From NCBI RefSeq assembly GCF_012027645.1, contig NZ_SNUU01000001.1:434001-498000 (forward strand): a DNA stretch of 64,000 nucleotides, written 5' to 3'. The notes under the pieces are model-generated. The model made no database searches, had not been told where the DNA came from, and was given only the letters and a program-made list of their open reading frames with translations. Below, in pieces: positions 52,141 to 55,345 of this stretch. How positions within the stretch are numbered: the stretch's first letter is position 1; every line of letters starts with the position of its first letter. The DNA comes from Thermococcus sp. 18S1 (lineage in GTDB: Archaea; Methanobacteriota_B; Thermococci; Thermococcales; Thermococcaceae). Both the position numbers and the translations under genes were made by a program.

Positions 52141-53337
52141 ATGGTCAAGAGGGTCCACATATTCGACTGGCATAAGGAGCACGCCAAGAAGGTTGAGGAG
52201 TTCGCGGGCTGGGAGATGCCCATCTGGTACTCCAGCATAAAGGACGAACACCTCGCCGTTAGAAACGGCGTCGCAATCTTCGACGTCTCTCACATGGGCG
52301 AGTTCATCTTCCGCGGGAAGGACGCCCTTGAGTTCCTCCAGTACGTCACGACCAACGACATCTCAAAGCCCCCCGCCATAAGCGGAACCTACACCCTCGT
52401 CCTCAACGAGCGCGGAGCGGTTAAGGATGAAACCCTCGTCTTCAACATGGGGAACGACACCTACATGATGGTCTGCGACAGCGATGCATTCGAGAAGCTC
52501 GAGGCCTGGTTCAACGCCATAAAGCGCGGAATCGAGAAGTTCGGCGAGCTTGACCTTGAAATTGAAAACAAAACCTACGACATGGTCATGTTCTCAATCC
52601 AGGGTCCGAAGGCGAGGGACCTCGCAAAGGACCTCTTCGGCATCGACATCAACGAGCTCTGGTGGTTCCAGGCCAAGGAGGTCGAGCTCGACGGAATCAA
52701 GATGCTCCTCTCAAGGAGCGGCTACACCGGTGAGAACGGCTGGGAGGTCTACTTCGAGGACGCCAACCCGTACCACCCTGACGAGAGCAAGCGCGGAGAG
52801 CCGAAGAAGGCCCTCCACGTCTGGGAGAGAATCCTTGAGGCCGGAGAGAAGTACGGCATAAAGCCGGCCGGACTCGGGGCAAGGGATACCCTCAGGCTTG
52901 AGGCCGGCTACACGCTCTACGGCAACGAGACCAAGGAGCTCCAGCTCCTCAGCACCGACATCGACGAAGTCACGCCGCTCCAGGCCAACCTCGACTTCGC
53001 CATCTTCTGGGATAAGGAGTTCATAGGCAAGGAGGCACTCCTCAAGCAGAGGGAGCGCGGCCTCGGCAGGAAGATGGTGCACTTCAAGATGGTCGACAAG
53101 GGCATCCCGAGGGAGGGCTACAAGGTCTACGCGGACGGTGAGCTCATCGGAGAGGTCACCAGTGGAACCAGCTCCCCGCTCCTCGGAATCGGCATCGGAA
53201 TAGCCTTCGTTAAGGAGGAGTACGCCAAGCCGGGCGTCGAGCTGGAGATAGAGATAAGGGGCAAGCCCAAGAAGGCCGTAACCGTTGCCCCGCCCTTCTA
53301 CGACCCCAAGAAGTACGGAGCCTTCAGGGAGGAGTGA
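52141..53337 (+). CDS. gcvT: glycine cleavage system T protein (aminomethyltransferase)
   Basis: A 398-residue tetrahydrofolate-dependent aminomethyltransferase that moves the methylene group of glycine from H-protein to a pterin. Blocks seen are [60 protein letters not shown] and [20 protein letters not shown]. No other gcv genes lie in the window. ATG 52141 follows GGTGATAGC; the TATA element AGGGTTATAACGC (52106-52118) lies upstream. Its T-rich 3' end (53338-53358) looks like a terminator. Confidence 0.95.
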
Positions 53338-53358
53338 TTTTTCCTCTTCTTTTTCCAT
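53338..53358 (+). terminator. T-rich terminator after gcvT
   Basis: TTTTTCCTCTTCTTTTTCC follows the gcvT stop within three bases and precedes the next promoter. T-runs of this type terminate archaeal transcription. Confidence 0.55.
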
Positions 53359-53367
53359 AAACCTTTT

Positions 53368-53406
53368 AGGTAATGGGGGCGTTACCTGGTAACGGGGGCA
53401 TTACCT
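53368..53406. repeat. nested palindrome/direct repeat over the archaeal ATPase promoter
   Basis: Two 18-bp units, GGTAATGGGGGCGTTACC (53369-53386) and GGTAACGGGGGCATTACC (53388-53405), lie 19 bp apart. Each is a GGTAA/TTACC inverted repeat; together they nest, with outer arms AGGTAAT/ATTACCT and inner arms GTTACC/GGTAAC. The block runs from just after the TATA-like CCTTTTAGG (53362-53370) to the start codon. It would be a strong operator, perhaps for autoregulation by the ATPase's own winged helix. Confidence 0.6.
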
Positions 53407-54483
53407 ATGCTGTTCGACCCGAGACCGAAAAAAAGAAGAGAAGAGCTTTTTGACCGAGAAAAGGAAATAGAGCAGCTTATCAACACCAAAGAGCCATTAA
53501 CACTTCTCCTAGGCATACGCAGGGTTGGGAAGAGCTCCCTGCTCCGGGTAACGCTGAACGAGCTCGAAAACGGCGTTTATATAGATGCACGGAAGATGTA
53601 CTTTGACTCCGGGGGATGGATAACCTCCGAATCGCTCATCAGAGAGCTTGAAAGTGCTCTGAATGCCCTTAGGGGAACAGTTCGAGGGAAGGTTTTTGAA
53701 ACCCTTGGACACGTTAGGGGTGTTTCCATTTCAGGAGTCAGGATTGAGCTGACCCGGGAGGTTCGTGTATCCACGGTTCTGGAGGCTTTGAATGACGTTG
53801 GCGCGGTCATCGGTATCGATGAGGCCCAGTACCTAAGGTTTTACGGGTCAAGGGGTGGAAAGGAGTTCCTAGCGCTACTCGCCTACTCCTACGACAACCT
53901 TGATAATCTGCGGTTCATATTGAGCGGCTCCGAGGTCGGACTCCTCCACGACTTCCTGGGGATGGATGACTATGAGAGTCCCCTCTACGGCAGATCCCAC
54001 AGGGAAGTGGTCCTCAAACCGTTCTCAAAGGAGCTTTCCACGGAGTTCCTCAGAAGAGGATTCTCGGAGATCGGAATGGAAGTTCCCAGCGAGGTCATTG
54101 AAGGGGCCGTTGGTTTTCTCGATGGTGTGCCCGGATGGCTCGTGGAGTTTGGGAGAAAATACGCCGAAACCCAGGACCTCAAGGGCTCACTGGAGTACGT
54201 GTTCCAGAGGGCCAAAGGATTTCTTAACGGAGAGCTGAAAGAGCTCGAAAGGAGGAGCCCCCGCTACGTGCTGATCCTTGAGGCCATCGCTAGGGGACAC
54301 AACCGGTGGGAGCTCATAAGAGACTATCTGGCCTCAAAAGGACACAACGTCCCGAAATCCCGCCTCGCGGAGTTGATTAGGAACCTTGAAAAGATGAGTT
54401 GGATCGAGGCAGACTTCAGCTCGGACAGGAAAAGGTACAGGATAATCGACCCAGTAATCGAGCGCGTTCTGATGGAGCGATAG
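53407..54483 (+). CDS. archaeal STAND-type ATPase with C-terminal winged helix
   Basis: A 358-residue protein of the archaeal ATPase family (PF01637 type). Walker A is GIRRVGKSSLL (36-46), Walker B region VIGIDEAQYLRFY, and sensor LRFILSGSEVGLL. The lid region YGRSHREVVLKPFSKELSTEFLRRGF precedes a C-terminal winged helix (HNRWELIRDYLASKGHNVPKSRLAELIRNLEKMSWIEAD). Many copies exist in Thermococcales genomes and their roles are not known; links to defence or DNA transactions were proposed for the class. ATG 53407 follows directly after an operator-like repeat and GGGGG. Codon use is slightly less biased than that of its neighbours. Confidence 0.9.
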   Translation: MLFDPRPKKRREELFDREKEIEQLINTKEPLTLLLGIRRVGKSSLLRVTLNELENGVYIDARKMYFDSGGWITSESLIRELESALNALRGTVRGKVFETLGHVRGVSISGVRIELTREVRVSTVLEALNDVGAVIGIDEAQYLRFYGSRGGKEFLALLAYSYDNLDNLRFILSGSEVGLLHDFLGMDDYESPLYGRSHREVVLKPFSKELSTEFLRRGFSEIGMEVPSEVIEGAVGFLDGVPGWLVEFGRKYAETQDLKGSLEYVFQRAKGFLNGELKELERRSPRYVLILEAIARGHNRWELIRDYLASKGHNVPKSRLAELIRNLEKMSWIEADFSSDRKRYRIIDPVIERVLMER

Positions 54484-54514
54484 CCTTTTATCTCCATTTG
54501 GCTTTTTCAACATC

Positions 54515-55345
54515 ATGTCCCGCAAGCACGCTATCGGAGCCGTTCTCCTGTGGTCGACCGTCGCGAGTGCCTTCAAGCTCTCCCTGCGCTACATGAGCCC
54601 TCTCCAGCTCCTGTTCTACGCGTCCCTAACCTCGCTCGTCCTCTTTGGAATCCTCTACGTGGGAGAGTTCACCCCCAGAAGGGAAAACCTCCGCTCTGCC
54701 TACCTCGGCCTGATAAATCCGCTCCTCTACTACACCGTGCTCTTCTCGGCATACGACAGACTGCCAGCCCAGGAGGCGCAGGCGCTCAACTACACCTGGC
54801 CGCTGATGCTCGTCCTGCTCTCGATTCCCCTCCTCGGAAAGAGACCCGGTGCGAGAACTGTGCTCGGCCTGTTCCTAGGATTCCTCGGAGCTATCGTCGT
54901 TGCCACGAAAGGCGACGTTGCTGATTTGAACTTCACGGACCCAATAGGCGTTGCTCTCGGTCTGGGAAGCGCCGTAATCTGGGCGAGCTACTGGCTGCTG
55001 AACCTCAGGGACGGAAGGCCACTCGTCGAAAAGATGTTCTGGAACTTCCTCTTCGGCTTCGCCTACGTTTCAATCGCCGTCGTCGCCACCGGTAACTTCG
55101 CCGTTCCTCCCGTGGAAGGCCTCGCGGGGGCAATCTACGTCGGCCTCTTCGAGATGGGGGTTACTTTCCTCCTGTGGTACCGCGCGGTTGAGGGGGACAT
55201 GGCGTTTGCATCCAACCTGGCCTACCTGGTGCCCTTCCTGAGCCTGTTCTTTATCTCCGCCGTCGTGGGGGAGGGCATCGCAACGGCGACCGTCCTGGGG
55301 CTGGCGATGATAGTAGGGGGCATAATCCTCGGAAGAGAACAATAA
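54515..55345 (+). CDS. EamA/DMT-superfamily transporter
   Basis: A 276-residue membrane protein with ten predicted helices and two EamA repeats (about 1-130 and 145-276), the typical layout of drug/metabolite transporters. It starts MSRKHAIGAVLLWSTVASAFKLSLRYMSP and includes the LPAQEAQALNYTWPLMLVLLS helix of repeat one. The substrate cannot be deduced; amino acids or their analogues are common. ATG 54515 has no strong ribosome site, and CCTTTTATCTCC (54484-54495) gives a TATA element 25-30 bases upstream, which suggests a leaderless message. Confidence 0.87.
   Translation: MSRKHAIGAVLLWSTVASAFKLSLRYMSPLQLLFYASLTSLVLFGILYVGEFTPRRENLRSAYLGLINPLLYYTVLFSAYDRLPAQEAQALNYTWPLMLVLLSIPLLGKRPGARTVLGLFLGFLGAIVVATKGDVADLNFTDPIGVALGLGSAVIWASYWLLNLRDGRPLVEKMFWNFLFGFAYVSIAVVATGNFAVPPVEGLAGAIYVGLFEMGVTFLLWYRAVEGDMAFASNLAYLVPFLSLFFISAVVGEGIATATVLGLAMIVGGIILGREQ

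Follow-up and report, generated by a model that had tools for sequence, protein, structure and literature searches.

Tandem dyads at the promoters of a family of STAND-like archaeal ATPases: a probable private operator whose spelling follows the recognition helix of the encoded protein

The window analyzed here is a stretch of 64,000 nt from Thermococcus sp. 18S1, and the locus under study in it comprises a gene for a 358-aa ATPase, which lies between a gcvT-type gene on one side and an EamA-type transporter gene on the other, together with a compact repeated block that immediately precedes its start codon. The features are as follows:

53362–53368, + strand: TATA-like box CCTTTTA, read from the sequence and abutting the block; a putative promoter element.
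53369–53386, no strand: dyad 1, GGTAAT-GGGGGC-GTTACC, read from the sequence and found at the same position in homologs.
53381–53393, no strand: central palindrome GTTACC-T-GGTAAC, read from the sequence and made up of the two inner half-sites.
53388–53405, no strand: dyad 2, GGTAAC-GGGGGC-ATTACC, 19 bp after dyad 1 and found at the same position in homologs.
53394–53398, + strand: GGGGG core of dyad 2, 8 nt before the ATG; a probable Shine-Dalgarno sequence.
53407–54483, + strand: gene for a 358-aa PF01637 protein (ATPase_2, STAND-like AAA+) with a C-terminal winged helix, from profiles and the solved relatives 2QEN and 2FNA.
53446–54150, + strand: ATPase domain, residues 14–248 (Pfam PF01637, E 6e-19).
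54250–54444, + strand: C-terminal winged helix, residues 282–346 (Pfam PF21100, E 3e-12, and predicted structure).
54352–54360, + strand: Pro316-Lys317-Ser318, where the predicted recognition helix starts; no other columns of the protein associate as strongly with the spelling of the putative operator.

By profile and motifs, the window protein is a member of PF01637. It scored 69.2 bits against the PF01637 profile (curated cut-off 33.2) and 46.6 bits against the winged-helix profile PF21100 (cut-off 27) and, with a winged-helix fold predicted for its C-terminal end, it agrees with the ATPase bearing a C-terminal winged helix that the first-pass annotation had described. Residues G36, R38, R39, G41, K42, and S44 of Walker A (GIRRVGKSS), as well as D138 and E139 of Walker B (IGIDEAQ), are invariant among 24 aligned members; additionally, LFDREKEIE resembles the STAND signature motif hhGRExE, with D replacing G, and G240-V-P242 fits the STAND motif GxP. 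In the predicted structure, the winged helix is composed of helices 285–295, 301–310, and 317–329 and strands 333–336 and 343–346 (mean pLDDT 93.9), helix 317–329 being the predicted third, recognition helix. Relatives of solved structure found by sequence are 2QEN (PAB2304, E 8e-105) and 2FNA (SSO1545, E 6e-55), and the window protein belongs to the same family as these STAND-class archaeal ATPases by both sequence and predicted fold. Homologs were found in 73 of 94 Thermococcaceae genomes at E<=1e-40, with 0 to 11 copies per genome, and a wider search of the phylum added none outside Thermococcaceae at E<=1e-15. The protein had no match among NCBIfam profiles, and a defense annotation is limited to weak PADLOC candidate matches (PDC-S27, E 6e-7). 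We also considered a plasmid or phage origin for the gene, to which the record searches gave no support: close relatives were found neither on 72,556 plasmids, with nine distant matches of less than 26% identity, nor in 50,697 phage records.

Direct reading of the block gives A at 53368, dyad 1, T at 53387, dyad 2, T at 53406, and the ATG at 53407, which confirms the two GGTAAY-GGGGGC-RTTACC units, with a period of 19 bp, previously noticed between a TATA-like box and the start codon. The block had also been described as a 39-bp palindrome. This holds for the arms, since over the full 39 bp the outer ones pair with each other and so do the inner ones, but not for the cores; both of these are GGGGGC and they are not complementary to each other, so the palindrome is one of arms and not of the whole block. 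Exact matches to GGTAAY-N6-RTTACC in the window are limited to the two copies of the block, and the same two are the only ones in the host genome; with up to 2 mismatches there are six matches in the window, no excess over shuffles (mean 3.6). We then scored agreement among the four half-sites (maximum 36, threshold 27). A sliding scan of the window retrieved the block as the single best place, with a score of 32, and among the starts of 100 mechanical ORFs of at least 150 aa a score of at least 27 was reached at that of the ATPase and at one other, 53358, which is the start of a spurious antisense ORF on the same DNA as the block.

Tandem dyads at the promoter are a hallmark of the ATPase family. 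For a first set we read the DNA upstream of homologs from the 94 Thermococcaceae genomes and of four distant archaeal homologs, of which 113 in all were retained after dropping 25 of 138 homolog rows (duplicates or less than 60 nt of upstream DNA); 109 of these upstream regions scored at least 27, vs. 7 of 1130 dinucleotide shuffles, none of which exceeded 28. A second set came from Metallosphaera and its order, Caldivirga, an unclassified crenarchaeote, and a thaumarchaeon, and comprised 94 loci once 5 of 99 (four partial, one duplicate) were dropped, with 4 of its genes also present in the first set (L039–L042). Here, 79 of the 94 loci scored at least 27, vs. 5 of 950 shuffles, and 57 scored at least 30, which no shuffle did; the threshold of 27 is thus reached by 0.5–0.6% of shuffles in both sets. 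Looked for upstream of other family members, the element is therefore present, once differing spellings are allowed, rather than absent. A third, held-out set was drawn from the order of Caldivirga and the class of the thaumarchaeon (81 loci, after dropping 8 of 89 with no upstream DNA or that were short, partial, or duplicate); 46 of the 81 reached the tandem-dyad threshold and 35 fell below it. Inspected by eye, many of the latter retain a single long central palindrome in the interval from TATA to the start codon (e.g., L352 and L356–L364), and because this is the sole remnant in a number of held-out members, the central palindrome of the inner half-sites may be the core site of the block. 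Among distant PF01637 paralogs of the host genome, also judged by eye, L150, L154, and L155 apparently have blocks with other spellings, and no block is visible at several others.

The architecture varies at some loci. L028 has, upstream of 1501, four identical units of the AGTATC-GGGGGC-GATACT type instead of two. Upstream of L256 and L259, the left and right half-sites differ (AGTATC and AGTAAC) and the units agree, so that the repeat is more direct than palindromic. L150 (host genome, near C1:851458) shows a second copy of the element, CCTACCCGTTTCGGGTGGGGTCTA, around 80 bp upstream of the block. At L145 (host genome, near C1:1935676) a lone block, GCAGGACCCCCCACCAGTTACTGGTGGGGGGT, lies behind its own TATA and before a different PF01637 gene, which has a second TATA; this lone block resembles the promoter of L136, from another genome, and is probably a relic. 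L236 and L246, from another PF01637 subfamily whose proteins start with KF[IV]FGKP, have two tandem palindromes of the ATGGGTACCCAT kind around the start codon.

The commonest geometry, 6-6-6-1-6-6-6 (arm-core-arm-spacer-arm-core-arm), is that of 125 of 170 blocks. Among 216 blocks, T and A predominate in the bases directly preceding the block, where the profile is TTTATA-like, and the block ends between −5 and +4 nt relative to the start codon in 214 of them. A Shine-Dalgarno-like tetramer is present in core 2 of 198 of the 216 blocks, vs. core 1 of 115; being G-rich and Shine-Dalgarno-like, the second core is more constrained than the first. The Shine-Dalgarno-like character of core 2, and the end of the block at the start codon, which would place dyad 2 in the 5′ leader, would also suit a block that acts at the mRNA level and controls translation by folding into one or two hairpins, whose loop would hold the Shine-Dalgarno core and to which the ATPase may bind. 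We regard this as improbable. Archaeal transcription usually starts around 25 nt after the TATA box, in which case dyad 2 alone would be transcribed, yet both dyads are conserved. Likewise, mismatches in dyad 2 are C-A in 56 cases vs. G-U in 49 (in dyad 1, G-U in 71 vs. C-A in 43), and C-A mismatches as common as G-U wobbles in dyad 2 point to the symmetry of a DNA site and not to RNA pairing. These counts, together with the lack of any Rfam match in 53200–54600, disfavor an RNA element; besides, as shown below, the spelling tracks the recognition helix of a fold that binds DNA.

The spelling of the half-sites differs widely among members, with 45 distinct consensus 6-mers among 170 blocks, and paralogs within one genome carry differing dialects. 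Dialect A (GTAAY), that of the window gene, was found in 37 of 94 Thermococcaceae genomes, and its sister, dialect B (GTATC), in 45 of 94, each at one locus per genome; the exceptions are one weak second match, with 2 mismatches, to dialect A in one genome, and one four-unit array. Reversed-pattern controls for these searches gave one match in the 94 genomes and none, respectively. A regulon of one shared element was sought in the host genome and in the 94 Thermococcaceae genomes and discarded, given that each dialect has one locus. For this reason, the idea that the same element might control several family members, as initially put forward, finds no support: the window dialect occurs once per genome and same-genome paralogs have others.

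We examined the relation between spelling and protein sequence as the entropy-corrected mutual information between each protein column and each half-site base. This was done with 170 members (effective number 56), leaving out 28 of 198 proteins whose block scored below 27; these 170 may hold up to four genes twice (L039–L042), which the weighting at 60% identity neutralizes in the association, although not in the raw table. When the register of the half-sites was set, a T at base 3 earned a small bonus, and we therefore do not claim conservation of this base. Over bases 2, 4, 5, and 6, the top three of the 358 columns were 317 (Z 8.5), 316 (Z 5.7), and 318 (Z 4.5), which are consecutive and lie at the start of the predicted recognition helix 317–329; column 317 pairs with base 2, 316 with base 4, and 318 with base 5. 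In the raw table for the 170 members, base 2 is C in 83, T in 3, A in 1, and G in none of those with D or E at residue 317, and G in 69, T in 2, and C in none of those with N or K. That is, Asp/Glu-317 goes with C and Asn/Lys-317 with G in 152 of 152 cases in which base 2 is C or G. Among the top 30 associated columns, the whole winged helix was not enriched (7 vs. 5.4 expected, P 0.29), and the recognition helix accounted for 4 vs. 1.5 expected (P 0.05); it is residues 316–318 alone that are conspicuous.

The rule for residue 317 was written down before it was applied to the held-out set. Among its 46 threshold-passing proteins, base 2 is C in 22 and G, A, and T in one each of those with D or E, and G in 13, A in 1, and C in none of those with N or K, so that 35 of 36 C-or-G cases obey the rule (Fisher p 6e-9). 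The miss, L403 (D317 with G), was counted as such, and looks like an error of register. With predictors trained on the first set alone, and held-out proteins 45–67% identical to the nearest training protein, column 317 was the best of the 358 for held-out base 2 (0.83 correct vs. 0.54 for the median column), 316 the best for base 4 (0.72 vs. 0.41), and 318 the best for base 5 (0.67 vs. 0.39). Likewise, taking one representative per cluster of less than 50% identity gave 23 D/E-C and 10 N/K-G among 42, with no crossing.

Within Thermococcaceae the dialects largely follow the phylogeny of the paralogs, with 8 changes on the ATPase tree, and their association with clades is barely stronger for the winged-helix part (0.79) than for the ATPase domain (0.74). 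Covariation within this family is thus inseparable from phylogeny, which is the reason why sampling was widened to other archaea. On a tree built with the ATPase domain only, base 2 and residue 317 each change seven times; strict independent contrasts, on well-supported branches, yielded 4 pairs only, all in the predicted direction (p 0.125). Judging from these comparisons, the spelling of the putative operator co-varies with residues of the recognition helix, the strict phylogenetic contrasts being underpowered by themselves. The difficulty of separating dialect from phylogeny within Thermococcaceae leaves some room for the block being the operator of another, shared regulator, with an agreement with the winged helix due to shared ancestry only. 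We give very little credence to this, in that 45 half-sites could hardly be read by one protein and that, out of 358 residues, 316–318 best predict the spelling, also in held-out proteins at most 67% identical to those used for training.

A minority of blocks stand without their gene: at 14 of 60 block loci examined there is no family gene after the block at E<=1e-3. These comprise eight dialect-A blocks before an EamA gene, five dialect-B blocks beside argS, and L160. The eight orphan dialect-A blocks show a mean pairwise identity of 0.91, vs. 0.83 for each of the flanking coding sequences, on the gcvT side and in EamA; this better conservation is not explained by simple autoregulation. In these loci (L163, L166, L167, L170, L172, L173, L178, and L184, at positions around 1500–1600), the stretch from TATA to block is kept around 60 nt before the EamA gene, with the TATA lost in L167. 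In the dialect-B orphans (L193, L199, L200, L208, and L212), a short stretch, with an insert in L199, precedes the convergent argS. At L165 (1197–1535), a deletion leaves the block and only the C-terminal 100 residues, that is, the winged helix (88% identical), with the retained ATG out of frame; what is left may be a relic or may use a GTG start codon. At L160 (1500–1963), an IS200/IS605-type TnpB-like ORF lies around 85 nt after the right arm ...GTTAC, and later parts of an ATPase gene are found downstream. Elements of the IS200/IS605 type have a target preference, with insertion 3′ of TTAC, and L160 looks like such an insertion.

Orphan blocks imply either another reader or a recent loss of the gene, and the fact that they outlive the gene hints at a further reader. 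They also bear on whether the block might be one end of a mobile element and owe its retention to the gene moving along with it: copy number varies among genomes, relics are common, and several gene losses leave the block intact and break right after it. This appears most unlikely to us, since inspection by eye beyond the stop codon showed neither a matching repeat nor a duplicated target, dialect-B loci with and without the gene occupy the same chromosomal site, and the one apparent precise break, at L160, has the look of an IS605/TnpB-type insertion.

Taken together, the sequence comparisons make it highly probable that the block is a private operator and that the ATPase uses its winged helix to bind the promoter of its own gene, where it would probably act as an autorepressor. 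The autoregulation suggested by the first-pass annotation is in this way strongly supported by computation, with the block preceding nearly all close members and its spelling best predicted by three residues of their own recognition helix. The four half-sites would be bound by the winged helix at the C-terminus of the ATPase, with residues 316–318 reading bases 2, 4, and 5 of each half-site; their number suggests two dimers or a dimer of dimers, and the compact palindrome at the center may be where these chiefly bind. With the usual archaeal TATA spacing, transcription is expected to start in the left part of dyad 2. The bound protein would sit on this start site, covering it and the Shine-Dalgarno core and blocking RNA polymerase, and it is the position of the block, which fills the space from TATA to start codon, that makes autorepression the most likely effect. 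The state of the ATPase domain, in terms of bound nucleotide or ligand, might relieve or adjust repression, in a putative coupling to ATP. As each paralog has its own half-site spelling, copies in the same genome would not be expected to cross-regulate.

The protein could instead bind as an activator, or dock on the DNA for another task, origin-like or as a sensor, at a site that is not mainly for repression. The predicted fold is close to those of Orc1/Cdc6, proteins that bind repeats next to their own genes; additionally, the ATPase gene is solitary between unrelated metabolic genes and orphan blocks persist without it. We see this possibility as rather unlikely, as a protein bound between TATA and start codon, which is where nearly every member has its block, would hinder the polymerase, and as dialects A and B occur once per genome, which leaves no array of other sites. 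The window ATPase and Orc1/Cdc6 share an AAA+ domain plus a winged helix, with predicted-fold matches to 1W5T (E 4e-9) and to the DNA complex 2V1U (E 6e-8), but the full-length TM-score of the model is only about 0.45–0.5, and the predicted fold is also close to CED-4. Likewise, the site occupies one locus in a genome and forms a symmetric tandem dyad within a promoter, unlike an origin repeat array; searches with dialects A and B did not reveal the multiple recognition sites of an origin.

Autorepression by the window ATPase would resemble that by known archaeal regulators. Phr, LrpA, and TrmB-type autorepressors are small regulators that bind between the TATA box and the start site; the position of the site, a winged or helix-turn-helix reader, and a likely steric block of the polymerase would be common to both, whereas the reader is here joined to a STAND-like ATPase, with a private spelling for each of the many paralogs. 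We predict from its sequence that the window ATPase behaves as autoregulated transcription factors of archaea do, except that the regulator is a STAND-like ATPase and that its family has a set of private operators. The RepA (ParA-type) ATPases of Rhizobium belong to a different ATPase class, with a role in plasmid partition, and their DNA-reading domain differs from the winged helix of the window ATPase. As in the present case, they are paralogous ATPases coexisting in one genome, and each RepA is reported to autorepress specifically its own repABC operon (PMC4492784). The mycobacterial IniR, a STAND-like transcription regulator of a stress response whose ATPase domain was modeled on SSO1545, differs from the window ATPase in having an SdiA-like C-terminal DNA-binding domain and a MalT-like sensor domain (PMC5760070). 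The papers searched for the PF01637 family (2QEN, 2FNA) gave neither a role nor a DNA target, and the open-licence literature gave no description of the promoters of the ATPase family, which does not establish their absence in print; with respect to SSO1545 and PAB2304, the putative private operator and the residue-to-base code are new here.

We tentatively extend this reading to a large archaeal family of solitary STAND-like ATPases, in which each member would have a private operator spelling read by three residues and its own gene as the sole strong target, with no crosstalk among paralogs. PF01637 is multicopy in many archaea, and structures have been solved since 2006–2008 (release dates); with a DNA target now predicted for most members, and a simple rule linking residue to base, the family is open to direct tests. 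If the reading is true, the protein would act as a sensor that limits itself, with its own level, or its being present at that promoter, as the output; the operators could be predicted from sequence and could serve as a set of orthogonal archaeal switches. The family would also provide a natural example of numerous paralogous regulators that co-evolved operators apparently keep separate.
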